From Sphingobium sp. (GTDB taxonomy: Bacteria > Pseudomonadota > Alphaproteobacteria > Sphingomonadales > Sphingomonadaceae), in assembly GCA_009360885.1 (NCBI GenBank), contig SPEL01000005.1:186001-250000 (forward strand): a stretch of DNA of 64,000 nt, read 5' to 3'. The notes beneath the pieces were generated by a model. The model saw nothing but the letters and a program-made list of their open reading frames with translations, was not told the DNA's origin and ran no database searches. Position 1 is the first letter of the stretch. Each line of letters begins with the position of its first letter. Shown in pieces: positions 14,133-52,744 of this stretch. Position numbers and translations under genes: made by a program.

Positions 14133-15104
14133 ATGAGGTTCGGGATGATGGATGCTCGTTTTCCACTATTTGAAAGGCTGCGCCTGCCCGTCATTGGCGC
14201 GCCTATGTTCCTGCTTTCCGGGCCGGAACTGGTCATCGCCCAGTGCAAGGCCGGTGTCATCGGCAGCTTCCCATCCCTCAACGCCCGCCCCACCAGCCAG
14301 CTTGACGAATGGTTGCACCAGATCCGCGAAGAGCTTTCCGCATGGGATCAAGGCCACCCGGACACCCCAGCCGCGCCCTTTGCCGTTAACCTGATCGTCC
14401 ACGCCAGCAATAACCGGCTGGAGGAAGATATGGACATGTGCGCCCGGCATCAGGTGCCGATCGTTATCACCTCCCTTGGCGCGCGGGAAGATGTGAACAC
14501 AACCGTCCATAGCTGGGGAGGCGTCACTTTGCATGATGTCATCCATGATCGTTTTGCACGCAAGGCCATTGAAAAGGGCGCAACCGGCCTCATCGCCGTT
14601 GCCACTGGTGCTGGCGGCCATGCCGGGACTGTATCCCCCTTCGCACTGGTACAGGAAATTCGCCAATGGTTTGATGGGCCGCTCGCTTTATCGGGCGCGA
14701 TTGCCAATGGTCGCTCCATCCTCGCAGCCCGTGCGCTGGGTGCCGATGTCGCCTATATTGGCAGCGCCTTCATCGCCACAGAAGAAAGCCGTGCCGTCCC
14801 CGCCTATAAGCAATGCATCACGGACAGCCACGCCAGCGATATTATATACAGCAACCTGTTTACCGGCGTGCATGGCAATTATCTGCGCGCCTCAATTGAG
14901 GCCGCTGGGCTGGACCCTGATAATTTACCACAAAGCGACCCAACGAAGATGAATTTCGGCTCTGGCGGCAATCAGGCAGCCAAGGCTTGGAAAGATATAT
15001 GGGGCGCGGGTCAGGGCGTTGGCGCTATCGACCACATAGAAACGGTGGCCGATCTGGTCGCCCGTTTCATCCGCGAATATGAGGAAGGCAAGGCTGCCTT
15101 ATGA
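14133..15104 (+). CDS. Nitronate monooxygenase family protein
   Basis: This FMN-dependent TIM-barrel protein (323 residues) belongs to the 2-nitropropane dioxygenase/nitronate monooxygenase family, which oxidises alkyl nitronates. PVIGAPMFLLSGPEL is the N-terminal signature, ATGAGGHAGTVSPF the glycine-rich phosphate loop, and GADVAYIGSAFIATEES the second phosphate-binding region. Some relatives are enoyl reductases, so the substrate is uncertain. MMDARFP, four codons in, is an alternative start. It appears monocistronic and is convergent with the chemotaxis operon. Confidence 0.88.
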   Translation: MRFGMMDARFPLFERLRLPVIGAPMFLLSGPELVIAQCKAGVIGSFPSLNARPTSQLDEWLHQIREELSAWDQGHPDTPAAPFAVNLIVHASNNRLEEDMDMCARHQVPIVITSLGAREDVNTTVHSWGGVTLHDVIHDRFARKAIEKGATGLIAVATGAGGHAGTVSPFALVQEIRQWFDGPLALSGAIANGRSILAARALGADVAYIGSAFIATEESRAVPAYKQCITDSHASDIIYSNLFTGVHGNYLRASIEAAGLDPDNLPQSDPTKMNFGSGGNQAAKAWKDIWGAGQGVGAIDHIETVADLVARFIREYEEGKAAL

Positions 15105-15170: not shown

Positions 15171-15217
15171 TTAGAGCGGTTTCCCTGATCCAGCCTAACC
15201 TGAAACCACTCTAAGCC
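15171..15217. repeat. Inverted repeat, copy A (CTTAGAGCGGTTTC type)
   Basis: CTTAGAGCGGTTTC and GAAACCACTCTAAG are 14-base arms with one mismatch that still pairs as G-U. The arms are separated by 19 bases. A related palindrome lies at 16710-16754, and both are accompanied by GGGCGATTTCTAATC. The element looks like a REP-type intergenic palindrome. It could also terminate the chemotaxis operon. Confidence 0.65.
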
Positions 15218-15582
15218 GCAGATGAAGTATTTTTCTGCTCTTCAATCACAGGCGGAAAACTAATCGCCCGGCGTAAGTCCTCCAACCGGTCAGCCAATGC
15301 CTGTAGGGTGATTTCCGGGATGATCGCTGCCGGATTTTCCGCGCGCAGCAACTCCGCCAACCACATAGTGCGCTGGCCCATTTCATCCAGCCGTTGCAAA
15401 TGCGGCATACAACGGACCATTACCGCCTCATCAAGGCAGAGCTGTACCCCCAGATTCTCCATATCCTCGCGGAGCTGATATAGTTCCTGCGCAATTTTAT
15501 CACGCATCGCCAGCGGATAAGGCGGCCATGCCGACATATCCGGCGCTGTCCTATCGGGCCCCTGTGGGGGATCATGAGACAT
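15211..15582 (-). CDS. Small protein of unknown function at the end of the chemotaxis operon
   Basis: I do not recognise the family. The 123-residue product is soluble and mostly helical (MRDKIAQELYQLREDMENLG, MPHLQRLDEMGQR, LQALADRLEDLRRAI). It has a short proline-rich N-terminus. The ATG lies inside the end of the degenerate cheB gene, with GAGGAGGG five bases upstream, so translation is probably coupled. A longer reading adds five residues. Its position suggests a partner of the degenerate CheB or of chemotaxis in general, which is inference. Confidence 0.7.
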   Translation of the reverse strand: MSHDPPQGPDRTAPDMSAWPPYPLAMRDKIAQELYQLREDMENLGVQLCLDEAVMVRCMPHLQRLDEMGQRTMWLAELLRAENPAAIIPEITLQALADRLEDLRRAISFPPVIEEQKNTSSAA

Positions 15583-16642
15583 TTTCGCCCTCCTCACAGC
15601 GCGTCAATATGGCGCTGGCCAGTGCATCCAACGGTAATTGCGCTTCCACAGCACCCTTGGCGATGGCCGCCGCCGATGCCTCAAACAGCATCGCGCTGTC
15701 TTTATCCTGACAGAGTGTAAGCCCCCCCATTTGCTTTATCGCGCCCATGCCCGCCGCGCCATCAATGCCTGCACCCGAAAGGATAACGCCAACGGCCTTA
15801 TCCCGTGCCGCCTTGGCCACCGTCGTCAGCAATAAATCCGCCGATGGGCGCACGCCGTTGACCGGATCCCGCGCCATCAGGCGGATGGAACCACCGGGCC
15901 AGCGATCCAGCAACCCATGCCTGTCCTGATGGGAAAGAACATAAACATGGCCGGGCTTGAGTGGCTGGCCATCTTCCGCCAGCTTAACCTCTGGCCGGAC
16001 GGCCTGATTGAGGCGAGAGGCGAAGGGAACCGCCAGCCCTTCCTCCAATTGCTGAAGCACGATAGTCGGCGGACAATCCACCGGCCAGTGAGAGAGCAGT
16101 TCCGTCACAGCAGGGCCACCGCCCAATGATGCTGAAATCGCTACGATCGACCCATTCCATCTATAATCGCCTGCTGCCGGGGCACTGTTGGCCGCCGCTT
16201 CCGCCTTTGCCTCAACCGCCGCGACATCATATTTCTTCACCTTGCTCTTTGCCGCAGTCGCCACCAGCTTGCAGAGCTTATCAGCAATCTGGGCAAATTC
16301 CTCGGTCGTCGCACGGGCAGGCTTGTGAAAGCATGCAACAGCCCCCAGTTCCAATGCGCGCAATGTTACCTCCGCCCCTTTTTCCGTCAGCGTCGATAAC
16401 ATCACCACCGGCATAGGGCGGCTCGTCATAATCTCTTCAAGGAAATCGATGCCGTTCATCCCCGGCATTTCAATATCCAGCGTCACTACATCCGGGCGCA
16501 ACTCGGTAATCATATCTCTGGCTTCGGCAGCATTCGCGGCCGCGCCCACCACCATCAGATTGCCAGCCTGTTCCAACGCACTGGAAAACAGGGCGCGCAT
16601 CGTAATGGAATCATCGACAACCAGAACCTTGATAGCGGCCAT
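15572..16642 (-). CDS. Degenerate CheB: receiver plus methylesterase domain lacking the catalytic histidine
   Basis: The 356-residue product has the CheB layout: a receiver domain at residues 1-125 with phospho-acceptor Asp56 (LDIEMPG), an Ala/Lys linker, and a methylesterase-like domain from about 165. The catalytic serine is kept (Ser172 in SASLGG, normally GASTGG) and so is Asp294 (AGIDGA). The catalytic histidine of the QH motif is glutamine (LQQL, Gln198). It is therefore probably not a working methylesterase or deamidase, but may act as a phosphorylatable docking or sink protein. A canonical CheB is encoded upstream in the same operon. A 171-base gap with palindromes separates it from cheW. 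Confidence 0.85.
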   Translation of the reverse strand: MAAIKVLVVDDSITMRALFSSALEQAGNLMVVGAAANAAEARDMITELRPDVVTLDIEMPGMNGIDFLEEIMTSRPMPVVMLSTLTEKGAEVTLRALELGAVACFHKPARATTEEFAQIADKLCKLVATAAKSKVKKYDVAAVEAKAEAAANSAPAAGDYRWNGSIVAISASLGGGPAVTELLSHWPVDCPPTIVLQQLEEGLAVPFASRLNQAVRPEVKLAEDGQPLKPGHVYVLSHQDRHGLLDRWPGGSIRLMARDPVNGVRPSADLLLTTVAKAARDKAVGVILSGAGIDGAAGMGAIKQMGGLTLCQDKDSAMLFEASAAAIAKGAVEAQLPLDALASAILTRCEEGENVS

Positions 16643-16813: not shown

Positions 16814-17254
16814 TCACGCCGCTTCGGGCAAAGTTACGTCGCTTGTCAGGCTGGGCATATCCAACACCATCACCATCCGGTCCTCCAGCGCAACCAGCCC
16901 TTCGAGATGCGGCACCACCGCATCATGGCCCGTGGTAGGCGGAGGCTGTATCGCATCTTCCTGTATGGTGACGATGTCGCTGACTGCATCGACAATCAGC
17001 CCACGAAGCTGGCCGCCCGTCTGCACGACGATAATGACATGGCGGTCCGTCGGCACGGCAGCCTCCCACCCCAGACGCGCCGCAAGATCAATCACCGGCA
17101 GCACCGTGCCGCGCAGATTAACCACGCCCGCAACATAAGAAGGCACATGCGGCAAACGGGTTGCCGGGGACCATGCCCGAATTTCACGGATGGTCATGAT
17201 ATCAAGGCCAAAGCTCTGTTCGCCCAAGCGAAAAGTGATTAATTGCCGCGCCAT
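16814..17254 (-). CDS. cheW: Chemotaxis coupling protein CheW
   Basis: CheW links receptors to the CheA kinase. The 146 residues read as a complete CheW domain: LITFRLGEQSFGLDIMTIREI, then VPSYVAGVVNLRGTVLPVIDL, and VDAVSDIVTI. It lies 35 bases after cheY. The conserved NLRG turn that contacts receptors and CheA is present. Since the CheA in this operon has lost part of its CheW-like P5 domain, normal array assembly is uncertain. Confidence 0.93.
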   Translation of the reverse strand: MARQLITFRLGEQSFGLDIMTIREIRAWSPATRLPHVPSYVAGVVNLRGTVLPVIDLAARLGWEAAVPTDRHVIIVVQTGGQLRGLIVDAVSDIVTIQEDAIQPPPTTGHDAVVPHLEGLVALEDRMVMVLDMPSLTSDVTLPEAA

Positions 17255-17289: not shown

Positions 17290-17667
17290 TTAATGGGTGA
17301 TGCGCCGCAGCGCGCTATCTAGCCGATCCGCGTCAAAGGGTTTTACAATCCATCCCGTTGCCCCGGCACTGCGCGCCCGCGCCTTTTTCTCGTCCGAACT
17401 TTCAGTGGACAGCACCAATATCGGGCAATCCCGGAAACGTACCTGATCGCGCAGGGCCTCTATCAGACCAAAACCGTCCAGCCGGGGCATGTTAATGTCG
17501 GTGACGATCACATCGACATCATCACCGCTATCTGCCAGCCACTCCAGCGCCGCAACGCCATCTTCCGCCTGACTGACGCGATACCCACGAGAACCAAGCG
17601 CCACGCGCAGCAAAGCGCGCATGCTCGCACTGTCATCTACCGTCAGGACATGCAGTTCTTCCGCCAT
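17290..17667 (-). CDS. cheY: Single-domain response regulator CheY
   Basis: The 125-residue product is a receiver domain alone. The acidic pair is in TVDDSASMR (near residue 10), the phospho-acceptor aspartate is in VTDINMPRLDG, the switch residue region reads LVLSTES, and KPFD carries the conserved lysine. In chemotaxis CheY-P carries the signal to the flagellar motor; no motor genes are in the window. The ATG before AEELHVL is chosen because the longer reading overlaps cheD and is not receiver-like. It is 19 bases after cheD. Confidence 0.92.
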   Translation of the reverse strand: MAEELHVLTVDDSASMRALLRVALGSRGYRVSQAEDGVAALEWLADSGDDVDVIVTDINMPRLDGFGLIEALRDQVRFRDCPILVLSTESSDEKKARARSAGATGWIVKPFDADRLDSALRRITH

Positions 17668-17686
17668 CAAACGGCCCTTTCCATCA

Positions 17687-18259
17687 TCAGAATAATTCCA
17701 CTTCACCACTGGCCGGACGCGGGGCAGAAGGCCGTTCCACCGGAACATCCCTGCGCCCGACAATACGGACCCTCACCCGCCCTCGCACCGGATCAAAATC
17801 AACACGCCGCGCGCACTCCCCACCCGTGTCACTGCGCACCAGCGGAATATTTTCTGTCGCCAGAAATTGCCGCGCGAAACGCGCGTTGGCGGAGCCTATT
17901 TGCGTCATCCCCCGATGCATGTCCGCCCCTCCGTAAATATGCGCCTTCATGCGGGACTTTAATGCACCACTTGTCATCATCTGGTTAATGAGCAATTCCA
18001 TCAGATAGGCGCCGTAGTTTGCGTCAGCGACCACCCCGCTATCAGGCGCAGGTTCGGCCAGCAGGAAATGGTTCATGCCGCCGATGCGGGCAACGGGATC
18101 ATAAAGACAGCAGGCGATGCAGCTTCCCAATATGGTCGTCACAATTTCAGGCTTGCCGGTGCCGACATAAGCCTGCCCCTGCATGATCGTTACATGGTCA
18201 TGATGCGTCGCGGGCGGGGTACTATCCGGGCTATGAGGGGAAGGGGCCGCCTGCATCAC
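17687..18259 (-). CDS. cheD: Chemoreceptor glutamine deamidase CheD
   Basis: CheD deamidates glutamines in chemoreceptors and in some bacteria is released by binding CheY-P or CheC. The 190-residue product shows the catalytic cysteine and histidine in TTILGSCIACCLYDP and GGMNHFLL, and KAHIYGGADM. Length is normal, with a short extra C-terminal tail rich in Arg and Pro. The start codon overlaps the cheB stop by four bases. Confidence 0.93.
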   Translation of the reverse strand: MMQAAPSPHSPDSTPPATHHDHVTIMQGQAYVGTGKPEIVTTILGSCIACCLYDPVARIGGMNHFLLAEPAPDSGVVADANYGAYLMELLINQMMTSGALKSRMKAHIYGGADMHRGMTQIGSANARFARQFLATENIPLVRSDTGGECARRVDFDPVRGRVRVRIVGRRDVPVERPSAPRPASGEVELF

Positions 18260-19389
18260 CAGCCCGCCATACCCAGCGCCGTACCCGCAATATGGGGCAA
18301 GGGCAGAATTTTCATGGCCGCGCCCAGACTGGCGGCCGCGCGCGGCATACCATAAACGGTAGAGCTGGCCTGATCCTGCGCAATAGTGCGGGCTCCCGCC
18401 TGCCGCATTGCTAACAGCCCCTTTGCGCCGTCCTGCCCCATGCCGGTTAGCAAAATACCAACCGCCGCCGGGCCAAGTCGCTGCGCCGCCGATTCAAACA
18501 AGCGATCCACACTGGGCCGATGGCCCGAGACCGGATCGCCCGGCACCATATTTACGGAAAGCTGTCCGGAACGACCAATGATGGCATGACGGTCATTGCC
18601 CGGCGCAATATATATATGACCGGGGCGCAAAGGCAGGCCCGGTTCCACCAGTTGCACCTTTGCCGCGCATTTCGCATCCAGCCGCTGCGCCATGGCGGGG
18701 GCGAAGGCCGCGCTGATATGCTGAACAATCACCGTGGGCGGGCAATTTTCAGGGAAGCTGGGCAAGATGTGGTGCAGAGCTTCCACCCCACCTGTTGAGG
18801 CGCCAATGACGATGCACAAAGCATCTGTTGTTGCAGATGCGCCAGCAAAGCGAACGTCGGTTGTTACCGATGTTCCAATGGAATCTATACCGGGTGCAAC
18901 AGGTCCAGTACCAGCCACCGCCCGCAACGCCGCATTACGAAGCGGCACAGCCCCACCAGCGGTCATATCCGCCGACATGCCGCGCCAGCGCCGCACCCGT
19001 GCCGCGCTGCTCACCATTGCGGCGAGCGCACCACCATCATGATCGAGGAAATTACTGATCGCCCCATCCGGCTTGGCATAACAATCGACTGCACCCAGTT
19101 CCAGCGCACGCACGGTCACGTCACAGCCCTGCTGGGTAACGCCCGATACAATCACCACCGGCATAGGACGCAGACGCATGATCTTATCGAGAAAATCCAG
19201 CCCGTTCATCCCCGGCATTTCAATGTCCAGCGTGACAACGTCAGGGTTCATTTCCCTAATCATCACCCGTGCCTGCCGCGCATCCGCCGCCGTGCCAATC
19301 ACTTCCAGATCAGGGGCCTGAGATAATAGCCGCGTCAGCAATGCCCGCATGGTTGCGCTATCATCAACGATCAGAACACGGGTCTTCAT
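18256..19389 (-). CDS. cheB: Chemotaxis methylesterase CheB (canonical)
   Basis: CheB removes methyl groups from receptor glutamates. The 377-residue product has a receiver domain (Asp55 in LDIEMPG) and a complete catalytic domain with Ser198 (GASTGG), His224 (VQHI) and Asp320 (MGQDGA). The linker between them (about 135-190) is longer than usual. It overlaps the cheA-cheR chimera by four bases (ATGA) and cheD by four bases. The opposing methyltransferase CheR is present only as a C-terminal fragment fused to CheA, so receptor methylation would depend on a CheR encoded elsewhere. Confidence 0.95.
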   Translation of the reverse strand: MKTRVLIVDDSATMRALLTRLLSQAPDLEVIGTAADARQARVMIREMNPDVVTLDIEMPGMNGLDFLDKIMRLRPMPVVIVSGVTQQGCDVTVRALELGAVDCYAKPDGAISNFLDHDGGALAAMVSSAARVRRWRGMSADMTAGGAVPLRNAALRAVAGTGPVAPGIDSIGTSVTTDVRFAGASATTDALCIVIGASTGGVEALHHILPSFPENCPPTVIVQHISAAFAPAMAQRLDAKCAAKVQLVEPGLPLRPGHIYIAPGNDRHAIIGRSGQLSVNMVPGDPVSGHRPSVDRLFESAAQRLGPAAVGILLTGMGQDGAKGLLAMRQAGARTIAQDQASSTVYGMPRAAASLGAAMKILPLPHIAGTALGMAGW

Positions 19390-21848
19390 GCCTCCACCTT
19401 TCGGTAAATCGTGTTGCCCACCAGCTCCAGCCGCTGCTGGGCCGGACCGCTCACCCGCTCGCTATGACCGATGTAGAGGTGACCGCCGGGGGCCAGATGG
19501 TCCGCAAAGCGCGCCACCAGCTTTTCCCGCGTCGGCTGATCGAAATAAATCATCACATTACGGCAGAAAACAACGTCAAACTGGCGCTTGATCGGCCAGA
19601 CACCCAGCAAATTGAGCCGCCGCACCCGTACAAGGGAACGCACCTCATCCTTCAACACCGCCTGCCCATGCCCCTCGGTATCCACGACAATCAGCACGCC
19701 TTCGCCGGGGTTCGTCAGCGCGCCTCTGGCACCCGTAGCATTACTGAGCGGTACAATCGGCAGGAAGCGGCCACGATTATTGAGAACCATCAAATCCTGC
19801 CCGATACCATCAATATCCTTCTCTTCTGGCCGCAGGCTTTCCAGCACATGGGTAAGCGGGATAACAACGGTCTGATCGCCAACGGTGACAATCATCCCAT
19901 CGGCAATGGCCAGCGTCAGCGGTAATGCCAGAGTGAAGGTACAGCCTTCACCGGGGCGCGATTCGATAGAAATACGCCCCCCCAGATCCTTCACATTCTG
20001 GCGCACCACATCCATGCCAACACCACGGCCAGAAATATTGGAAACCTGCTGCGCGGTTGAAAAACCAGCAGCGAAGATGAGATTGTCAATTTCTTCATTC
20101 GTTAACTGGGCATCCGGCGCGATCAGCCCCCGCTCCCGCGCCTTGCGCAGCACAACCTCGCGGTTAATGCCTGCACCATCATCGGTAATGGAAATAAGGA
20201 TACGCCCGCCGCGTTGCTCCGCCGACAAATGCAACTGCCCTTCGGCAGGCTTGCCGCTAGCGATGCGCTGCTCCGGCGTTTCAATACCATGATCGACCGC
20301 ATTACGGATGAGATGCGTCAAAGGCTCACCCAGACGTTCCACCACCGTCTTATCCAGCTCGGTGCTTTCCCCGCTCATCGTCAGTTGCACCTTCTTACCG
20401 GTCGATGATTCCAGCTCTCGTACAATACGCGGCACACGGGAAAAGACCGAGCCAATGGGCTGGGCACGAATGGACATCGCGCTTTCCTGAATTTCGCGGG
20501 TCAGTTGATCCAGCATCCCCATTTCATCGGTAACCGCAGCCCCGTTATGGCCGAGGCGCTGCGCCATCATCGCCTGCGCGATCACCAATTCGCCAACCGT
20601 GTCGATGAGCCGATCGAGCTTGGCGAGATCAACGCGCACCGTCTGGCCCACACTACTGACAGGGCGGGGGGCGGATGAAGCTGTGGCGGGGACGGTGGCC
20701 GAGGAGGGGGGCGGGGCTGAAGCAGGAACCGGGATTTGTTCTGCTGCCTCCTTCAACGGGGCAACGGGAACCGGCGCGGATTTCACCTCTGCCGCTGGCT
20801 GAACGATAACCGGCGCAGGAGCAGGGGCAGGAACCGAAGCCATAACCGCAGCCGGGGCCGGGGCGGCAACCGGCGGATATGCAGGAAGGGTCACAGAAAC
20901 CGGACCGGAACCGGGCAGCGCTTCCATTTCCTCAATCTTCAGCGTGCAATCATCACCGATGAAATCGAACACATCCTCAATTTCTGCGCGGGTGACGGAT
21001 GCAGGAAGAGCGAATTCCCAGCTCAGCCAACTTTTCTCAACCGTTAGCTGATCGAGCGAAGGCAAAGCGCTAGCATCAACCGACAGGCAGGAACCGCCCA
21101 GTTCCCCCAATTCCCGCAGCATCAACAACGGCTCATTACCATTGGCTAATGCACCATCGGCAAAACTCAGCGCCACATGCCAGCCATGGAGGGAAGCGCT
21201 TATGGGAAGGGAGGACATATCCGTGACATCTGTGACGGGCGCAGACGCAACAGCCACCACCGCTTCACCGTCTTCCAGCCGCCGCTCTACCTCAGCAGCG
21301 GCAGCCTCCATCGCGGCTGCCTCGCCCGCATCAAGGGACAATTCCCCCATCAGATCATCAAGATCAAAATCAAGACCGAAATCATCCGCCGATGCCTCAT
21401 CTGCCGCCGCAGTCACAGATGCTGCGCCAACATCATCAGAGGTCATTTCTTCTATTGGTAGGCCAGCGGCAGCACGCTCCGCCACCTCTTCCAATTCCGC
21501 GCTCACGGCCTCATCATCAGGCGACGGCCCTTCACCGCGCACCGACGCGACATGATCGCTCAGCACATCAAAGGCCCGCAGCATCAGCCCGGTCAGCCGA
21601 TCACCCAGCGCCAGATCTCCATCACGCACATAAGAAAGCACGGTTTCAAATTTATGGGTGAAGGCCTGCAACAGGGTGAAGCTGAAAGCCCCTGCCCCGC
21701 CTTTGATAGAGTGAACAGCGCGAAAAATGCTATTCACCGTCTCACCATCAGCCGTGCCAGACTGGCAGGCCATCAGCCCTTCTTCGGCAAGGGCGAGGGC
21801 TTCTTCACATTCCAGAAAGAAGATTCCCTGAATCTCTTCATTGGTCAT
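19386..21848 (-). CDS. cheA: CheA histidine kinase fused to the C-terminal part of CheR
   Basis: The 820-residue product is CheA for most of its length. P1 has the phospho-acceptor His46 (AVHSIKGG). A P2-like CheY-docking domain lies at about 218-310, and a long Ala/Pro linker follows. P3 dimerisation begins near 403 (VRVDLAKLDRLIDTVGEL). P4 kinase has the N box HLIRNAVDHGIE, then DDGAGI and GRGVGMDVV. P5 begins near 643 but stops after DTEGHGQAVL (residue 732). The remaining 88 residues are the end of a CheR methyltransferase: RRLNLLGVWP, FCRNVMIYFD, PGGHLYIGHSE and VGNTIYRK. The CheR N-terminal domain and SAM-binding GxGxxxGEE region are absent. This looks like an in-frame deletion that removed the end of cheA and the start of cheR. 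The reading frame is intact throughout. Confidence 0.9.
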   Translation of the reverse strand: MTNEEIQGIFFLECEEALALAEEGLMACQSGTADGETVNSIFRAVHSIKGGAGAFSFTLLQAFTHKFETVLSYVRDGDLALGDRLTGLMLRAFDVLSDHVASVRGEGPSPDDEAVSAELEEVAERAAAGLPIEEMTSDDVGAASVTAAADEASADDFGLDFDLDDLMGELSLDAGEAAAMEAAAAEVERRLEDGEAVVAVASAPVTDVTDMSSLPISASLHGWHVALSFADGALANGNEPLLMLRELGELGGSCLSVDASALPSLDQLTVEKSWLSWEFALPASVTRAEIEDVFDFIGDDCTLKIEEMEALPGSGPVSVTLPAYPPVAAPAPAAVMASVPAPAPAPVIVQPAAEVKSAPVPVAPLKEAAEQIPVPASAPPPSSATVPATASSAPRPVSSVGQTVRVDLAKLDRLIDTVGELVIAQAMMAQRLGHNGAAVTDEMGMLDQLTREIQESAMSIRAQPIGSVFSRVPRIVRELESSTGKKVQLTMSGESTELDKTVVERLGEPLTHLIRNAVDHGIETPEQRIASGKPAEGQLHLSAEQRGGRILISITDDGAGINREVVLRKARERGLIAPDAQLTNEEIDNLIFAAGFSTAQQVSNISGRGVGMDVVRQNVKDLGGRISIESRPGEGCTFTLALPLTLAIADGMIVTVGDQTVVIPLTHVLESLRPEEKDIDGIGQDLMVLNNRGRFLPIVPLSNATGARGALTNPGEGVLIVVDTEGHGQAVLKDEVRSLVRVRRLNLLGVWPIKRQFDVVFCRNVMIYFDQPTREKLVARFADHLAPGGHLYIGHSERVSGPAQQRLELVGNTIYRKVEA

Positions 21849-21896: not shown

Positions 21897-22172
21897 TCAG
21901 GCGGATTGCGCCCACCGGAATATCTCTGCCAGCCCGGCCACCCGCGCTGCCGAAATCATCGCAGGGGATGGATGCACCTCCAGCATAGCCGACCGCGCCT
22001 GTGCCGTTTGCTGGGCACTTAGCATCAATTGCAGGCCAGAAAGGCCGATGCGCGCCACATCGCTGCCTTCTAATATTACACTGACACCCGGTGCCATAGA
22101 CCGATCCAGATGAGAGACCAGAGCATCCGCAGAGGTGCGGTCCATGATGGCGGGCAGGGTTATCATTGTCAT
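21897..22172 (-). CDS. STAS domain protein
   Basis: A single STAS (anti-sigma-antagonist type) domain of 91 residues: ITLPAIMDRTSADALVSHL, then VILEGSDVARIGLSGLQLML. The DSSG phosphorylation motif reads GLSG, so the serine is kept and the aspartate is not. Such proteins often sit between an MCP and cheA in alphaproteobacterial operons. The ATG with AAAGGA ten bases upstream is chosen; a GTG nine codons earlier is possible. Confidence 0.8.
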   Translation of the reverse strand: MTMITLPAIMDRTSADALVSHLDRSMAPGVSVILEGSDVARIGLSGLQLMLSAQQTAQARSAMLEVHPSPAMISAARVAGLAEIFRWAQSA

Positions 22173-22212
22173 ATCAGTGGTGTCCTTTAATGGCCTCACT
22201 ATCTATTAATCG

Positions 22213-23712
22213 TTAAAATTCAGACCAGTCGTCGTCATCCATAGCCAGCGCGAGGCTATTTTCCCGCTGCGTCCGAACCTGCGCGGGTTGTGCTGCAACC
22301 AGTGGAGGAGACACAGGAGCTGGTGCAAAAGAGACCGAATTGCCGACAGGCGAAGGGGAAATAGTGGAAACGGCAGCAATCGCTTCCTTCCTCATCGGGC
22401 TGGCAGAGGACACTGCCGCGGGAGCCGGAGCTTCTTTCCTGCGTCCACCCAGCCGGAAACGCTCCACCAGCCCAGCCAGATCATCCGCCTCATTGGCAAG
22501 GCTGCGTACAGCGGCACTGGATTCTTCGACCATCGCGGCATTTTGCTGTGTCATCTTATCCATATCGCCAACGGACTGGTTGACCTGCAATAACCGCACT
22601 GCCTGCGTTTCAGCGGTTTCGGAGATAGAGGAGACAAGCAGATTTATTTCCCCCACCCGCGTCACAATACGGTTGAGCATTGATCCCGTTTCACCGACCA
22701 GTTCCACCCCAGTATTAACCTGCTGCGCGCTGGTCATGATGAGCGCCTTAATGTCCTTTGCCGCCTCGGCGCTACGCTGCGCAAGGGCGCGCACTTCGTT
22801 CGCCACTACGGCAAAGCCTTTGCCTGCATCGCCTGCGCGGGCGGCCTCTACCCCGGCATTGAGCGCCAGCAGGTTTGTTTGAAACGCGATACCGTCAATC
22901 ACATTGATAATCTGGGTGATTTCCTGCGCGGACCGCTCAATCGCTCCCATGGCGGCAACCGCGCGTTCCACCACAAGGCCGCCATCACTGGCTTCCTTAT
23001 GCGCGCCACCAATGGCTTGCGCAGCGCGATGGGCACTTTGTGCGCTCTGTTCCACCATGCTGGTGATTTCATTCATAGAGGACGCCGTTTCCTCCAGCGC
23101 AGCGGCCTGCTCCTCTGTCCGCTGCGACAAATCCTGCGTAGCAACACGAATTTCGCCAGAGCCGGAATGAATGCTACCCACCGCACGAGTGACAGAACCA
23201 ATGGTGCTGGAGAGGCTGCTCATCGCGTCATTATAATCCAGCCGCAGCCGGTCATATTCGCCGGGGAAATTATCGCCGATACGGAATAGCAAATTACCCG
23301 CCGCCAGCTCAGACAGGCCTTTGCCCAGCGCTTGTACAACCTGCTCCTGCTGCTTTGCATTGTCCTGCACCATCTGGGCATTACGGCGGAAGATATTCAT
23401 CGCCCGCACCATGCGGCCCACGCAATCCCGATGCTCGCCATAGCGTACAGGGCTATCGAGATCCCCTGCGGCAAGGGCCTCCATACGTTCAACCGTCGCC
23501 ACATAAGGGGCACTGATCTGGCGCCCGGCATAGATCATCGTCGCAGCCGTACCTATGAGGCCCCAGGCCGCACAGGCAAAGCCAATCAGCGGATAGCCTG
23601 CGACGGCAACCCCTACGCCAGCAAAAGCCCAAATTCCCCACATCATTTCTACAATCAACAGGGCCCGGAGCTTGTGGACAATCGGGGCGTGCTTGCTGAA
23701 CCAATCAAACAT
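22213..23712 (-). CDS. Methyl-accepting chemotaxis protein with CheR-docking tail
   Basis: The 499-residue receptor has two membrane segments close together (about 16-38 and 41-63), so it lacks a periplasmic sensor domain. HAMP-like helices follow (about 64-120). The signalling domain carries the conserved hairpin tip [17 protein letters not shown] with [16 protein letters not shown]. After a Pro/Ala linker the protein ends in DDDDWSEF, an acidic WxxF pentapeptide of the sort that tethers CheR or CheB. It heads the chemotaxis operon. What it senses cannot be told; detection from the cytoplasm or membrane is likely. Confidence 0.92.
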
Positions 23713-40170: not shown

Positions 40171-41574
40171 TTAGTCCTTCTTCGTGCGCCAGCCGTCAGC
40201 ATAGCTGTCACGAGCAACTTCCGAATAGGGAGCCGGCGAGACAATTGCCTTAATTTCAACCTGAACATGGGGTTCAACGGTCGGCTTCTTGGTGCCGCCA
40301 TTGGGTTCACCCCAAACCAGCGTTACTTCGGTGCCCGGTTCAGCAACCGATGCATCAACCATAGCGAGGGTCAGGAAGCGACCTTCGTTTGCGGTATAGC
40401 CAGACCAGGTGGAGATACCAACCGACTTGCCGTCCTTGGTGACGAGGTCATAGGGGTGCATGGAGTATACGGAGCTAGGCAGTTCCATATACTTCGCGCG
40501 GTCACCCTTCTGGAGCAGCGAGCTGAAAACGCGCATGACGTCTTCGTTGTCGAGAGCCAGCGTAACCTTTACGCGCTTCGGTTCCTTGTCCATCTTTTCG
40601 AGGGCTTCACGACCGATGAAGTCATGGTCGAACTTAACCATGATGCCATAGCCCAAATCCCACGGGGTCAGATAATAATCTTCGATGTTGTCGGAAACGA
40701 AGCTGCCGCCCATGGAGGTCATGCCTTCATAAGAATCGGCACCCAGCCATTCGCGATATTCACGCAGCGATTCGCCGGTGTAGATTGCAGGCAGCGGGGA
40801 CGGAATCCATGCGGATTCAAGAGCGTTGGAGCTGTAGGTACGGCCACCAACGAGGGTCAGGCCATCGTCCTTACCAGCTTCGATGATGGTGTTACGAACG
40901 GTGTCGTAATCTTCCCACGGGCCGAACAGTTCATAACCCGGCTGACCGGCCATGCCGTGACGCAGAGCGCGAACCTGAGCGCCACCGATATTGATGGTTG
41001 CCATGTGGAAGAACTTCAGATCCGGCGGGGTTACGCCGCCCATTGCCTTGCCGAGGATCGGCATTGCGTTGGGGCCCTGAAGCTGGAAACGATAGTTACG
41101 GCGATAGCCCTTTTCGGCTTCCGGACGAGCAGCAGTACGCTCATCGCGCTCTACCTTAACGTCCCACTTGCCCGAAGCAGCGTGGAATTCAACCCATTCG
41201 ATGGAAGGCGCACGGCCAACCAGTTCGAACTTGTTTTCTTCGAGGTAGAACAGGATCACGTCACCGATGACATACCCTTCGGGGGTTACCGGTGCGAACT
41301 GCTTTGCGCGGTCAGGAACGAAGCCCTTGAAGCTGTTGGGAGCGAGGTAAGCCAGCATTTCAAATGCCTGCGGACCGGTAACCAGCAGGTCAACCATGTG
41401 ATAGCTCTGGTTGAACAGCACTGCGGTGTTGCCCCATGCCAGCTGCTCGGTGCGCCAGTTGGAATATTCACCCGGTACGCCCGGATAGGCATTCGGGCCT
41501 ACCTGTGCGTTGCGCAGCATTTCAACAATGTTGCCCTTCTCGTCCAGCAGCTGCTGCAATGATTTCTTGGTCAT
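40171..41574 (-). CDS. ligM: Vanillate/3-O-methylgallate O-demethylase, LigM type
   Basis: The 467-residue product is a GcvT-fold aminomethyltransferase relative. From memory it matches LigM of SYK-6 (471 residues) end to end: GNIVEMLRNAQVG, EYSNWRTEQLAWGNTAVLF, HMVDL, RALRHGMAGQPGYELFGP, GWIPSPLPAIYTG-like segment ESAWIPSPLPAIYTGE, GGSFVSDNIEDYY, and VLWGEENGGT-like VTLVWGEPNGGTKKPTVEP. LigM transfers the O-methyl of vanillate to tetrahydrofolate, giving protocatechuate and methyl-THF. Its regular, C-ending codons suggest high expression. It lies 21 bases after an alpha/beta hydrolase gene and opposite metF. Confidence 0.85.
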   Translation of the reverse strand: MTKKSLQQLLDEKGNIVEMLRNAQVGPNAYPGVPGEYSNWRTEQLAWGNTAVLFNQSYHMVDLLVTGPQAFEMLAYLAPNSFKGFVPDRAKQFAPVTPEGYVIGDVILFYLEENKFELVGRAPSIEWVEFHAASGKWDVKVERDERTAARPEAEKGYRRNYRFQLQGPNAMPILGKAMGGVTPPDLKFFHMATINIGGAQVRALRHGMAGQPGYELFGPWEDYDTVRNTIIEAGKDDGLTLVGGRTYSSNALESAWIPSPLPAIYTGESLREYREWLGADSYEGMTSMGGSFVSDNIEDYYLTPWDLGYGIMVKFDHDFIGREALEKMDKEPKRVKVTLALDNEDVMRVFSSLLQKGDRAKYMELPSSVYSMHPYDLVTKDGKSVGISTWSGYTANEGRFLTLAMVDASVAEPGTEVTLVWGEPNGGTKKPTVEPHVQVEIKAIVSPAPYSEVARDSYADGWRTKKD

Positions 41575-41595
41575 AAATAACTCTCCTAAAAAAAC

Positions 41596-42354
41596 TTAAG
41601 CGAAAGTTGCAGGTGATGTCACGACGTGAGACGGCCAGTTCAGCCATTCACGAAGGATTTCGTTAAATTCATTGGGTTTTTCGGCAGGCAGCATATGGCC
41701 CGCTCCCTTTACTACGCGCAATTGCGCACCCGGTATCTTATTTGCGATTGCCTGATGTTGATCCACCGGTGACCACTGATCCTCATCCCCTACAATAGCA
41801 AAGGCAGGGCACCCTATCGCAGGCAACACATCCTCCACCTCAGGGCGGCTCAGCAGCGCCTCTATCTGGGCCTCAAATGTTGCAAGCCCGGCATCAACCG
41901 CCATTTCATGCAACAACGCGACCAGCGCAACATTTTTCTGCTGCGCAGGGGCCATCATCGGCGGCAACCACTCATCAACCAAGGCAACCATGCCATGCTG
42001 GCGACCCACATCACGCAGGGCATAGCGTTTATCCGCTTCGCCGGGGCGCACAGGATGAATACCGGTATCGGCAAGGGCAATGCGCTCTACCCGTTCCGGT
42101 GCCTTGCGAATCACTTCCAGAGCGATTCGCGCACCCATGCTATGGCCCAGCAGCGCAAATTTTTCTGGTGCGCGAGCCAATGCGTAATCAGCCATATCAC
42201 TGATATGATGGCAACCAGCATAAAAGCCATCAACCACAAAAACATCAGATAAAGCAGCAACTTGCGCAGAAAACATGCGCGAATCGCACATCAGACCCGG
42301 CAGGATCATCAATGTCGGCCTCTCCGCCTCAGTTATTGCTTTATTCGTATTCAT
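41596..42354 (-). CDS. Alpha/beta hydrolase
   Basis: The 252-residue hydrolase has the nucleophile elbow GHSMGAR (serine near residue 90), an acid in VGDEDQWSPVDQH and the catalytic histidine in GAGHMLPAEKP. It is the first gene before ligM on the same strand and is likely co-transcribed. A plausible role is to release vanillate or a related acid from an ester, but the sequence gives no substrate. An in-frame TTG eight codons earlier is a possible start. Confidence 0.85.
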   Translation of the reverse strand: MNTNKAITEAERPTLMILPGLMCDSRMFSAQVAALSDVFVVDGFYAGCHHISDMADYALARAPEKFALLGHSMGARIALEVIRKAPERVERIALADTGIHPVRPGEADKRYALRDVGRQHGMVALVDEWLPPMMAPAQQKNVALVALLHEMAVDAGLATFEAQIEALLSRPEVEDVLPAIGCPAFAIVGDEDQWSPVDQHQAIANKIPGAQLRVVKGAGHMLPAEKPNEFNEILREWLNWPSHVVTSPATFA

Positions 42355-42392
42355 GAAAATTTCATCTACCCGAAACAATCACTTCGCGCTAG

Positions 42393-42419
42393 AGGAAATT
42401 GACGCTACAGGAAATTGAC
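42393..42419. repeat. Tandem AGGAAATTGAC direct repeat in the ligM/metF divergent region
   Basis: Two identical 11-base copies lie 16 bases apart start to start. They sit in the short divergent region between the hydrolase-ligM pair and metF. Direct repeats of this kind often bind a regulator; the second copy also contains TTGACA. Confidence 0.5.
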
Positions 42420-42528
42420 AAGTGCCTGTGTGAGGAAGAGGCCCATGGAGGAAGAGGATAGTGCAACACCACATCCTGCCTTTCCACCCATTAAGGCCTA
42501 TATATTGGATATATCTGGGGAGAGAGTC

Positions 42529-43398
42529 ATGAATACGCCTGTCATTCACCCGAATTGGGACCTGCCACCGGCCTCCGCCACGGATGGCTATTCGCTGGAA
42601 ATCACCGCTAAGGATGCCGACTCGCTGCGCGAAGCCGCTGCCTCCATCCCGGCTGGCACCTCCATCGCCGTTACCTTCCTGCCGGGCGAAGACCCCGCCG
42701 CCCGCCTCGCTGCAACCAAAACCGTGCGCGAACTGGGCTTTGAACCGATGCCGCATTTTTCCGCGCGCCGCATCACATCTCAGGAAGAGTTTGAGACCTA
42801 TCTCAACGCTGTGGTCAGCGAAGCGGGCGTGAAACGCTGCTTCGTTATCGCGGGCGACCCCTCCGAACCCGAAGGCCCGTTTGCAGACAGCAGCGCCTTG
42901 ATCGACACTGGCGCATTTGAACGCGCTGGCATTGAGGTCATTGGCATTGGCGGCCACCCGGAAGGCCACCCCAACATGACCGAGGAAGAAACATTTGAGG
43001 TGCTGGCGAAGAAAACCGCCAACATCACTGCGCGCGGCATGTCACCGCTCATCGTTACTCAGTTCGGTTTCGATACGGACCGCTTCCTTGCATGGCTCAA
43101 GGAACTGCGCGCACGCGGTATTGATGCGCCGGTTCGCATTGGCATACCCGGCCCTGCTGGCATCAAGACTCTGCTGCGCTTTGCGGCCCGGTGCGGCGTT
43201 GGTGCATCGGCATCGGTCATGTCGAAATATGGCATTTCGATCACGAAGCTGATCGGTACTGCGGGCCCTGATAAGATGGTCGATGCCATGGCTGCGCAGC
43301 TAGGTGCTGAACATGGCCGCGTTCGTCTGCACTTCTATCCCTTTGGCGGCATTGCTAAAACGGTAGAATGGGTCAACGAATACGCCCGTCGCCATTAA
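42529..43398 (+). CDS. metF: Methylenetetrahydrofolate reductase
   Basis: The 289-residue FAD barrel protein resembles MetF: SLEITAKDADSLREAA, AVTFLPGEDPAARLAATK, PMPHFSARRI, RCFVIAGDPSEPEGPF, GIGGHPEGHPNM, and FDTDRFLAWLKELRARGI. It is a short, divergent member without the usual N-terminal FFP motif. MetF interconverts 5-methyl- and 5,10-methylene-tetrahydrofolate. Placed opposite ligM, it is likely to run in the oxidative direction on the methyl-THF produced by O-demethylation. GGGGAGAGAGTC precedes the ATG; longer readings lack family match. Confidence 0.82.
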   Translation: MNTPVIHPNWDLPPASATDGYSLEITAKDADSLREAAASIPAGTSIAVTFLPGEDPAARLAATKTVRELGFEPMPHFSARRITSQEEFETYLNAVVSEAGVKRCFVIAGDPSEPEGPFADSSALIDTGAFERAGIEVIGIGGHPEGHPNMTEEETFEVLAKKTANITARGMSPLIVTQFGFDTDRFLAWLKELRARGIDAPVRIGIPGPAGIKTLLRFAARCGVGASASVMSKYGISITKLIGTAGPDKMVDAMAAQLGAEHGRVRLHFYPFGGIAKTVEWVNEYARRH

Positions 43399-43410
43399 GT
43401 ATAAGCATTG

Positions 43411-43440
43411 TGCGGGGGGCCAATCACCGGTTTCCCCGCA
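43411..43440 (+). terminator. Hairpin between metF and purU
   Basis: TGCGGGG and CCCCGCA form a perfect seven-pair stem with a 16-base loop. There is no U-run, so it may attenuate or stabilise rather than end transcription. Confidence 0.45.
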
Positions 43441-43490
43441 AGTTTATATCACGACCAATATGAAAAACGCACCCTTGGTGGAGAAGAGAT

Positions 43491-44348
43491 GTGACTGAAT
43501 TATATACCCTTACCCTGCAATGTGATGATAAGCCTGGCCTCGTTGCTGTTGTTGCGGATTATCTCGTCAAAAATGACGGCAATATCATGGATGCGCAGCA
43601 GTATAACGACCGCAGCACCGGCCGTTTCTTCATGCGAGTTGAATTTGAACTGACTGGCGGCCAGACTCTTGAGGGTATCCGCACCGGTTTTGAGCAAGTC
43701 GCCAGCACCTATAATATGGACTGGAAATTGCGCCGTAATAAGGAACGCCAAAAGGTGTTGCTGCTGGTCAGCAAGTTTGACCATTGCCTTGGCGATCTTC
43801 TCTATCGCCATCGTATTGGCGAACTCGATATGGAAGTGGTTGGCATCGTTTCCAACCATCCGAAGGAAGTGCTGCACACATCGATGATTGGTGACCTTCC
43901 TTATCATTATCTGCCGATCACCAAGGACACCAAGCCACAGCAGGAAGCTCAGATTAAGCAGATCGTCAATGAAACCGGTGCAGAACTGATCGTTCTGGCC
44001 CGTTACATGCAGATTCTCTCTGATGACCTTTCGGCCTTCCTTTCTGGCCGCTGCATCAACATCCACCACAGCTTCCTGCCCGGCTTCAAGGGTGCGAAGC
44101 CCTATCATCAGGCCTATGCACGTGGCGTGAAGATGATTGGCGCAACCGCCCATTATGTGACCGAAGACCTCGATGAAGGCCCAATCATCCATCAGGATGT
44201 TGAAGCCATCAGCCATGCCGACACCCCTGAAGACCTCGTCCGCAAGGGCCGTGATATTGAACGCCGTGTACTGGCGACGGCAGTCGAACATCACCTCGCG
44301 GGCCGCGTATTCAAAAACGGCGCGCGCACGGTCGTCTTCAAAGCCTGA
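43491..44348 (+). CDS. purU: Formyltetrahydrofolate deformylase
   Basis: PurU hydrolyses 10-formyl-THF to formate and THF. The 285-residue product opens with an ACT-like domain ([28 protein letters not shown]) and has the formyltransferase-fold catalytic domain: [21 protein letters not shown], the conserved [20 protein letters not shown] with Asn and His, and [17 protein letters not shown] with the catalytic aspartate. The start is GTG with GGAGAAG upstream. It is followed four bases later by folD. Confidence 0.93.
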
Positions 44349-44352
44349 TCCG

Positions 44353-45216
44353 ATGGCAGAGATCATCGATGGCCGGGCCATGGCACAAAAACTGCTGGCC
44401 CGCACGGCTGAGCAGGTAAAGGCGATAGAAGCAAGGACGGGGCAAGCTCCCGGCCTCGCGGTCGTTCTTGTCGGCAGTGACCCGGCCAGCGAGGTCTATG
44501 TCGGGCGGAAAATCTCTCAATGCCGCAAGGCGGGCATTCGCTCTGTTGAGCATCGCCTGCCTGCGGATACCGCAGAGCAAGATTTGCTCACCCTCATTGA
44601 TGCACTGAATGAAGATGCCACTATCCATGGCATATTGATTCAGCTCCCTCTGCCCAAGCATATTGATGCAGCGCTGGTGTTAAAACGCATCAGCCCGCAT
44701 AAGGATGTGGACGGTTTCCACCCGGTCAATGTTGGGCGGTTATCGACCGGCACTGGTGGGCTGGTTCCCTGCACACCGCTGGGCATTATGATGCTGCTGG
44801 ACAGCGTGATAGAGGATTATCGCGGTCTGGATGCAGTGGTGATTGGCAAATCCAATATCGTTGGCAAGCCTGTCGCGATGCTGTTGCTGGAACGCGAAGC
44901 AACCGTCACCGTCACCCATATCGAAACGAAAGACCTGCCAGATGTCACCCGCAAGGCGGACATCGTCATTGCCGCCGCCGGTGCGCCGCATCTGGTGCGG
45001 GGCTATTGGGTAAAACCGGGCGCGGTGGTTATCGATGTAGGCATCACCCGCGTGACCGACCATGACGGTTCCACCCGCATTGTTGGTGACTGCGCCACCC
45101 ATGAACTGGAGCATGCCCGCGCTATCACCCCGGTGCCGGGCGGCGTTGGCCCGATGACAATTGCATGCCTGCTTGCCAATACGGTACAGGCGGCGGAAAT
45201 GGCGAATGATGACTGA
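44353..45216 (+). CDS. folD: Methylenetetrahydrofolate dehydrogenase/cyclohydrolase
   Basis: FolD converts 5,10-methylene-THF to methenyl- and then 10-formyl-THF. The 287-residue protein has [14 protein letters not shown] (catalytic lysine region: Tyr-x4-Lys), [45 protein letters not shown] for NADP binding, and [18 protein letters not shown]. It lies four bases after purU and overlaps folB by 11 bases. With metF and purU it makes a full route from methyl-THF to formate. Confidence 0.95.
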
Positions 45217-46218: not shown

Positions 46219-47661
46219 ATGGGACGCGCAACCGGAAAACAGGGAAAGAAATGGGGACGGTATATTGCCAGCCTCTGCAGCATCATTGCCGTTGGAGTAG
46301 CACTTGGCAGCAGCGCCGGAATCGCACAAGACTTTCATGACCGTCGGACGGTACAGTTTTCGCAGCAAATAACCGCAGATAATCCGCAAAGGACACCCGC
46401 TGTTTCGCGTAAACAGGGCTTTGATGGAACGCTGGTTCTAACCGGGGGGCGCATTTTCGATTCCGTTAAGGCGCAGGCTTATGCTGGCAGTCTGGTAATT
46501 CAACAAAACAAAATCGTCGCAGTGCTGCCCGCCGGGTCGCATGATTGGCCAGTTGACGCCACTGTGATTGATGTAACGGGTAAAACAGTGATGCCCGGCC
46601 TTATTGATATGCATGTGCATGCAACTTATCCCACGCCGCAGACGCCAGCCGATATGCACGCAAGTGAAGGGCATGCGACATTACGCGCGCTACGCAGCCT
46701 CCAGATATTGCTGGAAAATGGCATCACCTCTGTTCGTGATATGAGTGGCCCTTTAAACGCCCCCTATATCATCAGTGAATGGCTGGAAAAGGATATGGCG
46801 CCCGGACCACGGGTATTCGCCGCTGGCCACATCATCACCGGCACCGGCGGACATGCCGCCGATCGCCCCCTCACCGCCATCCATAGCGCCGCCTATACCC
46901 GCGAAGCAGATGGCCCGGATGACTGGCGCAAGGCGGTTCGTGAAACCTTCAAACTGGGTGCAAGCCACATTAAAATCGCCAGCCATTTCGCCCCAGATGA
47001 GGTGAAGGCCGCAGTCGAAGAAGCCCACCGCCTCGGCCTGAAAGTCACCTGCGATTGTGAAACCATCTATATCGCTATGGCCGTTGAGGCTGGCGTTGAT
47101 TCCATTGAACACCCCTTGCCGCGAACCGATGCGACCATTCAGATGATGGCAAAAAAGGGGATAGCAGCCATCCCTACAATGCAGGTCTATCAGGGTGGCT
47201 TTGATACACGCGGTGATTATGCCGGAACGGCATCCCGTCGCTTTTCCATGAATTCGCAAAGCAACTATGATGTTCTGAAGAAGATGATTGCTGCTGGCAT
47301 CACCATCGGCGTCGGGACGGATAATATTGGCGGCGCCTTTGGCTTGTCCCCTAATATATACATATCTGACCTCAAATTCTTGCAAAAGGCGGGTTACACC
47401 CCGGCAAAAGCATTGATGGCCGCAACCCGTGTCAATGCCCAGATTATGGATATGGGGGACAAGCTGGGGACGTTAGAACCGGGCAAGCTTGCAGATATTA
47501 TCGTTATAAATGGCAATCCAGATCAGGACCTGGACGCCCTCTCTCGGGTGGATACAGTAATCCGGAACGGGAATATTGTGGTGAAAGATGGCCAGCTTTT
47601 TGTACCACGCCATGTTTCCGCTCCGCTGCCGAAGCCTTCCCCGCCCGAGAACCTGCACTAA
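46219..47661 (+). CDS. Exported amidohydrolase family protein
   Basis: The 480-residue product has a membrane or signal segment (YIASLCSIIAVGVALGSSAGIAQ) and an imidazolonepropionase/prolidase-like amidohydrolase domain. PGLIDMHVHA carries the HxH metal pair, HIKIAS the possible carboxylated lysine, DSIEH the fourth ligand and GVGTDN the catalytic aspartate. The strand that normally gives a histidine (HAHG) reads CDCE. Relatives hydrolyse dipeptides or cyclic amides. It lies 13 bases before an M20 peptidase gene, so both probably process the same amide or peptide substrate. Confidence 0.83.
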   Translation: MGRATGKQGKKWGRYIASLCSIIAVGVALGSSAGIAQDFHDRRTVQFSQQITADNPQRTPAVSRKQGFDGTLVLTGGRIFDSVKAQAYAGSLVIQQNKIVAVLPAGSHDWPVDATVIDVTGKTVMPGLIDMHVHATYPTPQTPADMHASEGHATLRALRSLQILLENGITSVRDMSGPLNAPYIISEWLEKDMAPGPRVFAAGHIITGTGGHAADRPLTAIHSAAYTREADGPDDWRKAVRETFKLGASHIKIASHFAPDEVKAAVEEAHRLGLKVTCDCETIYIAMAVEAGVDSIEHPLPRTDATIQMMAKKGIAAIPTMQVYQGGFDTRGDYAGTASRRFSMNSQSNYDVLKKMIAAGITIGVGTDNIGGAFGLSPNIYISDLKFLQKAGYTPAKALMAATRVNAQIMDMGDKLGTLEPGKLADIIVINGNPDQDLDALSRVDTVIRNGNIVVKDGQLFVPRHVSAPLPKPSPPENLH

Positions 47662-47674
47662 TCAGGGGTTTCCT

Positions 47675-49147
47675 ATGAAGCTATTGCCATATCTTAAAAA
47701 TATTTCAGCTATCGCCCTGTTTACGGCAGTTACCGGGGGGGCGCAGGCATCTCTGAATGATGCAGAAAAAGGGCAAATCATACAAAGGATGAACCTGCGT
47801 GCGGATAGCATAGCGCGTACTGCCGATAGTATATGGAACTATGCCGAGCTTGGTTTCCATGAAACGAAGAGTTCGGCCCTACTGCAGGAACAGATGAAGC
47901 AGGCCGGGTTCACAGTTGATGCAGGCGTCGCTGGTATGCCGACGGCCTTTATCGCCCGTTACCGCAACGGCAAGGGTGGCCCGGTTATCGCTATTCTAGC
48001 AGAGTTTGACGCATTGCCGGGGCTCGCACAGGAGGCCGTACCGGAGCGGAAACCTATCGCAGGTCAGGCCGCAGGCCATGCCTGTGGTCATCATCTCTTT
48101 GGCGCAGCATCTGCTGCGGCCGCTATCGAAGCAGCCCGCTGGATGAAGGAAAAAGGTATCGCCGGGGAAATCAGACTCTACGGCGCGCCCGCCGAAGAAG
48201 GAGGCTCTGGCAAGGCATATCTCGTCCGTGAAGGCCTTTTTAAGGACGTCGATGCAACTTTGCATTGGCATGCTGGGGACAATAATTCTGCAGTCCAGCG
48301 CATCAGTCAGGCAAATATTAGCGGCAAATTCCGCTTTCACGGGAAAAGCGCCCATGCCGCCGGGGACCCGCAAAATGGTCGCTCCGCACTTGATGGAGTA
48401 GAGATTTTGAATCACGCGGCCAATATGCTGCGTGAGCATGTGCCAGATACTACCCGCATCCACTATGTTATTACCAACGGTGGCGGCGCGCCCAATGTCG
48501 TACCGGATTATGCCGAGGTATATTATTATGTGCGCCATAATGATGCCCGCATTGTCCGTGATGTAATGAACCGTGTGCAGGATGCTGCGAAGGGCGCGGC
48601 CATGGCGACTGGCACAACCGTGGAATTTGAGCAGACCGGGGGCGTATATGCCCTGCTGCCCAATAATCAGCTAGGCCTGTTAATGGATGCGAACCTGCGT
48701 CTAGTAGGAGGCGTCAACTGGACAGCCGAAGAAAAAGCATTTGCAGAAAAATTATATACGACCTTCCCTAATCCTGCCCGAAAATTGGGTAGCGAAACCA
48801 GCATCCTGCCTTATGCCTCAGATGTGACAGGCGAAGGATCCAGCGATGTTGGAGATGTAAGCTGGGTCACCCCTACTGCGGGCATACGCGCCGCCACATG
48901 GGGGCCAGGCACATCCGCACATAGCTGGCAGGCAGTAGCCTTTGGCGGCATGAGCATCGGCCATAAAGGGGCCGTAGTTGCCGCCAAAACAATCGCACTC
49001 AGCGCTCTTGATCTGATGACTAGCCCTGATGTGGTCGCAGCCGCCCGGAAAGAACTGCAACAACGCAGACCGGCGGATTTTGAATATCGCTCTCTCATCG
49101 GCGACAGGCCGCCCGCGTTAAATTACCGAGAGAGCGGTTCTAACTGA
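47675..49147 (+). CDS. M20 family metallohydrolase, AbgB-like
   Basis: The 490-residue enzyme has a signal peptide (MKLLPYLKNISAIALFTAVTGGAQA). It is an M20 amidohydrolase close to p-aminobenzoyl-glutamate hydrolase subunit AbgB: ILAEFDALPGLAQ, AGHACGHHLFGAASA for metal binding, APAEEGGSGKAYLVREGLF, a dimerisation domain with GKSAHAAGDPQNGRSALDGVE, and EGSSDVGDVSWVTP near the end. It probably acts in the periplasm on N-acyl-glutamate or other amides. The start follows GGGG by eight bases. Confidence 0.87.
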   Translation: MKLLPYLKNISAIALFTAVTGGAQASLNDAEKGQIIQRMNLRADSIARTADSIWNYAELGFHETKSSALLQEQMKQAGFTVDAGVAGMPTAFIARYRNGKGGPVIAILAEFDALPGLAQEAVPERKPIAGQAAGHACGHHLFGAASAAAAIEAARWMKEKGIAGEIRLYGAPAEEGGSGKAYLVREGLFKDVDATLHWHAGDNNSAVQRISQANISGKFRFHGKSAHAAGDPQNGRSALDGVEILNHAANMLREHVPDTTRIHYVITNGGGAPNVVPDYAEVYYYVRHNDARIVRDVMNRVQDAAKGAAMATGTTVEFEQTGGVYALLPNNQLGLLMDANLRLVGGVNWTAEEKAFAEKLYTTFPNPARKLGSETSILPYASDVTGEGSSDVGDVSWVTPTAGIRAATWGPGTSAHSWQAVAFGGMSIGHKGAVVAAKTIALSALDLMTSPDVVAAARKELQQRRPADFEYRSLIGDRPPALNYRESGSN

Positions 49148-52579: not shown

Positions 52580-52744
52580 CACACTAAGTTAGCCCCCTTT
52601 CCATAATATATTATGACTTATGGGAAGGGGGATGCTTCGTGTGAGATCAGAAGTTTTGATATTTTATCAGCACATCTGCCCTGTTTATATCAGGTCAGAC
52701 GACCGAGGCCGTTTCGATACCATCTTCCTTCACGGAGTCCCGTC

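Follow-up and report, generated by a model that had tools for sequence, protein, structure and literature searches.

An in-frame cheA-cheR chimera in an accessory chemosensory operon of Sphingobium sp., probably left by a private deletion

Is an open reading frame that begins as the chemotaxis kinase CheA and ends as the methyltransferase CheR a new signalling protein, the scar of a deletion or an error of assembly? The question is raised by a chimeric frame of 820 amino acids plus stop located at 19386–21848 on the minus strand of the window, the whole 64,000-nt stretch of Sphingobium sp. DNA analysed here. According to the open reading frame list, the Pfam matches and the DNA across the join, CheA sequence continues up to the middle of P5 and is then followed, in one reading frame, by the C-terminal ~88 residues of CheR. 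This is what a first-pass annotation had read from the sequence, and the chimeric frame is confirmed as a real sequence feature of the assembly.

The CheA part (residues 1–732; 19653–21848, minus strand) contains P1, P3 and P4 of a CheA histidine kinase, detected by Pfam as Hpt (residues 7–87), H-kinase_dim (402–460) and HATPase_c (509–645). The kinase core is complete, as the first-pass annotation held. P5, the CheW domain, starts at residue 651 and is incomplete. It covers positions 2–95 of the 138 of the Pfam profile, in line with the claimed loss of half of P5; the truncated domain still scores 40.3 bits, above the Pfam cut-off of 23.5. The CheR tail (19389–19667, minus strand) is matched at chimera residues 729–813 (E = 4e-25) and corresponds to positions 109–192 of the 195 of the Pfam CheR profile. 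These domain matches are far beyond chance. Pfam and the CheRs of relatives reveal that the CheR N-terminal domain and the first half of the SAM-binding domain are absent, as is the GCSTGEE-like stretch found in intact CheRs, while the conserved C-terminal block (FCRNVMIYFD, GHSER) is retained. With ~200 N-terminal residues missing, the methyltransferase is broken, again as annotated.

The chimera is embedded in a chemosensory operon transcribed from the minus strand, whose other genes were assigned by Pfam. Upstream are a gene for an MCP that ends in DWSEF (22213–23712) and one for a STAS-domain protein (21897–22199). Downstream, intact genes encode CheB1 (18256–19389) and CheD (17687–18259), both also supported by the open reading frame list, CheY (17290–17763; its real start is probably Met32 at 17670) and CheW (16814–17254). 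They are followed by a second CheB-like protein, CheB2 (15572–16642), and a small conserved operon frame without a Pfam match (15211–15597). We examined six relatives gene by gene (L046, L039, L048, L115, L040 and L041). The gene order mcp-STAS-cheA-cheR-cheB-cheD-cheY-cheW-cheB2 is identical in all of them, except that no STAS match was obtained in L041; the other five carry the STAS-domain protein in the operon. In trimmed alignments, the operon proteins are 58–88% identical to those of the five nearest loci.

In all six relatives cheA and cheR are separate frames that overlap by 4 bp, with cheW further downstream. A cheW gene lost from between them, as suspected in the first-pass annotation, is ruled out by this direct overlap, and the operon's cheW is in its place here as well. 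The frames of the chimera and of CheB1 share 4 bp at the end of the former, just as cheR and cheB overlap in five of the six relatives; in L115 the listed cheB frame begins further upstream. Separate genes in relatives had been named beforehand as part of what would speak against the chimera. They were found, and by themselves they fit a private deletion and an assembly error alike.

Several features of the neighbourhood deserve mention in their own right. A second, longer MCP gene stands upstream of the operon in five of the six relatives (L046, L048, L115, L040 and L041), whereas L039 has a single MCP match and here an enoyl-CoA hydratase gene adjoins the MCP gene (22213–23712, minus strand) instead. 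In CheB2 (15572–16642, minus strand) the H of the QH motif of CheB, the catalytic histidine, is replaced by Q. The same substitution was observed in four of five relatives, and the fifth (L041) likewise has no H, so that, judged by this motif, CheB2 looks like a conserved inactive methylesterase. By Pfam, a cluster at 40171–45216 comprises genes of GCV_T and FolD type and one whose product has formyl-transferase and ACT domains; it resembles the genes for tetrahydrofolate-dependent O-demethylation in lignin-degrading Sphingobium.

The size of the missing segment could be estimated from the relatives. The CheA part ends 792–807 bp before the CheR tail begins in L046, L047, L048, L049 and L115, and 7 bp before it here (L126). 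Corrected for match starts, 785–797 bp are missing compared with the five nearest loci; relative to L047, this removes ~61 C-terminal CheA residues and ~200 N-terminal CheR residues. Partial domains, separate genes in relatives and the missing length together support the in-frame deletion that had been proposed.

The exact breakpoint is ambiguous within residues 728–732 (GQAVL; 19653–19667, minus strand), a putative short direct repeat. We compared 17 CheA and CheR rows at this place, several of which duplicate one another: CheA reads GQAVL or GQAAL in 15 of 17 and GSAIL in two, and intact CheR has QA at the matching place, in phase, in three of 17, the remaining 14 having no QA there. The cheR genes of L048 and L157 carry CAG GCG at the site, in phase with cheA, and the CheR of L051 reads GQAML, encoded by GGA CAG GCA ATG TTG. 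Since the lost copy is no longer visible, we infer that the strain's own cheR once carried a GQAVL-like stretch. The comparison points to short direct repeats, in phase with each other, as the ends of the deletion. The frames of cheA and cheR differ, and the join could nevertheless be kept in frame because the suspected repeat is positioned alike relative to the codons of both. Survival of the frame, left to chance in the first-pass annotation, thus has a simple possible cause.

We looked for the same junction in other genomes. No junction-spanning match was detected in any of 93 other genomes of the genus (94 in total; E 1e-15; 16 match, own included), 396 others of a family sample (397 in total; E 1e-20; 61 match, own included) or 384 others of a class sample (385 in total; E 1e-18; 34 match, own included), these three sets overlapping and consisting mostly of genomes without the cluster. 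They therefore tell little about the frequency of such fusions among genomes that have the cluster. At E 1e-15, ten of the 15 other matching genomes of the genus have both halves at separate places and five have CheR only. Among the best 80 of 545 confirmed named loci, 78 hold both halves, none in one frame; the best named matches to the chimera are mostly Sphingobium, a set from which records of the chimera's own genome may be missing. Of the plasmid records, 459 have a match and none has one place covering 80% of the query. Long open frames (e.g. in G352, G383 and G451) hinted at further fusions, and we rejected these candidates: at all eight loci checked (L146–L153), CheA and CheR proved to be in different frames, 789–1373 bp apart. 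We took the same fusion in several genomes as the mark of an evolved CheA-CheR fusion family; it was found in this genome only, the one genome of the species among those searched.

These data are probably best explained by a private and probably recent deletion of ~785–797 bp that joined cheA and cheR in frame and inactivated an accessory chemosensory pathway. Its main rival is an error of assembly or consensus: cheA and cheR would be separate in the organism, and the assembly would skip ~790 bp or display a minor variant of a mixed sample. The assembly consists of eight contigs and is rated 79.6% complete, and the fusion was seen in no other genome searched, both of which are compatible with such an error. 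However, direct repeats around the site that are spaced by more than 300 bp reach only 10–13 bp in five relatives, which is shorter than usual assembler word sizes. Nor is the missing piece found elsewhere in the assembly, which contains only two CheR matches (one being the chimera itself) and four CheW-domain matches, all accounted for. A transfer of the piece to another place is thereby ruled out for the assembled part, that is, at 79.6% completeness. A weaker argument against an artefact comes from 36 other frames chosen in the window, among which Pfam revealed no second two-family join of this kind; four of them have no match and several have partial profile matches (e.g. 10–1239, 14133–15101, 47588–49144 and 52613–55465). 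We consider an artefact rather unlikely, and it is correspondingly quite likely, although by no means certain, that the deletion is real.

Divergence of the two remnants bears on the age of the event. The mean distance of the CheR tail to 12 outgroup loci is 0.294, compared with 0.304–0.314 in five intact relatives; for the P5 remnant the values are 0.391 and 0.414–0.429, respectively. Changes at otherwise invariant sites amount to 2 of 36 in the CheR tail, 0 of 31 in the P5 remnant, 2 of 133 in P3-P4 and 0 of 48 in P1, and in the downstream proteins to 3 of 114 (CheB1), 2 of 65 (CheD), 2 of 73 (CheY), 2 of 71 (CheW) and 3 of 91 (CheB2). Of the nine segments, the CheR tail shows the largest share, with numbers too small to count. 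Because the remnants are no farther from the outgroups than intact genes, the event is probably recent. As far as such distances can tell, the unraised divergence would fit a recent event, an artefact, which also predicts remnants conserved like intact genes, or remnants still under selection, and the data do not separate the three. An old decaying pseudogene is unsupported, as the outgroup distances are not raised. The first-pass annotation had left a choice between a working new architecture and a decaying pathway. Loss of function is the better fit of the two, but nothing points to continuing decay, since the remnants show the conservation of intact genes.

A real deletion would have had its endpoints in short direct repeats of matching codon phase, one in P5 of cheA (GQAVL) and the other in cheR, immediately ahead of the RRLNLL block. 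It would have taken ~61 codons from the end of cheA and ~200 from the start of cheR and fused what was left in frame. The product, which keeps P1, P3 and P4, may retain receptor-independent basal kinase activity. P5 couples CheA to CheW and receptors (PMC10782961), and the truncated protein would be expected neither to form the normal P5-CheW contact nor to couple to receptors; it would also be devoid of methyltransferase activity. The accessory pathway would thus lose receptor control and its own CheR at once, and the kept frame would let translation run on into cheB and later genes.

The C-terminus of the operon's receptor is relevant here. Pentapeptides that carry W as their second and F as their fifth residue are described as binding CheR/CheB (PMC7390727), with the CheR beta-subdomain as the binding site (PMC7390727, PMC3062574). 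The MCP ends in DWSEF, which fits this pattern, and therefore may have relied on the operon's own CheR. From these sequence features, a pathway without receptor control and without methyltransferase is the likely outcome. As a counterpoint to loss, the truncated P5 still scores above the Pfam cut-off, the frame is unbroken and no downstream gene is damaged.

Such a loss would probably be tolerated because the genome has another set of these genes. A second CheA/CheW/CheB/CheR set was found at C7:124–130 kb; by Pfam, its CheR is nearly full length and its CheA has a full P5. Two flagellin-domain genes are present on C8. Given the second set and these genes, ordinary chemotaxis may be unaffected.

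Two further readings would give the chimera a function. In the first, the P5 remnant and the CheR tail would form a working C-terminal module, and CheA would signal in a changed array. In its favour, the frame, the kinase core and the downstream genes are kept, and divergence is not raised. The structure prediction proposed in the first-pass annotation bears on it. For P3-P4, the AlphaFold model of the chimera is similar to that of the intact control L047, and the CheR tail has block means of 60–85. In contrast, the P5 remnant is not folded with confidence, with block means of 26–62 compared with 71–89 in the intact control, a comparison that is approximate since the control alignment (A5) has 15 rows and that of the chimera (A4) 20. 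In A4, about five terminal residues are misplaced in the ten CheA rows, which end within P5 and leave the stretch just before the junction without aligned relatives; low confidence before the junction is partly due to this. Alignments A1, A2 and A3 were left out, MAFFT having misplaced separate CheA or CheR pieces in them. The CheR tail, moreover, is without the N-terminal half of the SAM-binding domain, and the arrangement occurs in a single genome only. A working new architecture has no support beyond an open and conserved frame, and we regard it as very unlikely.

Equally improbable is a receptor-free kinase that would supply the operon's CheY and CheB1 with phosphoryl groups at a low, unregulated level, its constant output maintained by selection: P1, P3 and P4 are complete and CheY and CheB1 intact, but there is no phylogenetic spread, and cheW and mcp are kept, though such a role would not need them. 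We likewise give very little credence to the more general version in which the fusion is fixed and expressed in the species, with a CheA without normal receptor coupling and the CheR tail as a new C-terminal module, receptor-free or differently wired beside a normal second pathway.

We therefore return to the private deletion. If it is real, the locus is a case in which nature has truncated P5 and removed the CheR that belongs to the pathway, while the genome has kept a second set and the rest of the operon, and so a small natural experiment on the dispensable parts of a chemosensory pathway. It would also illustrate how a 4-bp gene overlap can give way to an in-frame fusion where a short repeat shares its codon phase in both genes. 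The chimera is no evidence for a new array architecture.

Our search of the open-access literature retrieved no report of a CheA-CheR fusion, and only as far as that search extends can the fusion be called unreported. The survey of CheA architectures by Berry, Andrianova and Zhulin (2023; PMC10782961) presents CheAs fused to CheY-like and to CheC/CheX domains. The CheAs surveyed have P1, P3 and P4 in common with the chimera, whereas no CheR fusion came up in the sections consulted, and the main text mentions 'CheR' a single time, in its introduction. The survey reports a CheW (P5) domain detected by HMMER in 100% of 13,673 CheAs; the truncated P5 found here would also be detected, so this figure is compatible with truncated P5s among them. 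CheR-TPR fusion proteins are described (PMC3447774), in which CheR is joined to TPR domains, whereas here just a C-terminal CheR fragment is joined to CheA. The closest counterpart is the Sphingobium-type accessory operon itself, as in Sphingobium fluviale CHR27 (L049) and the metagenome-assembled genome M0605 (L047): the gene order is the same as here, but cheA and cheR are separate in those operons, whereas in the present one they are fused and ~790 bp are missing.
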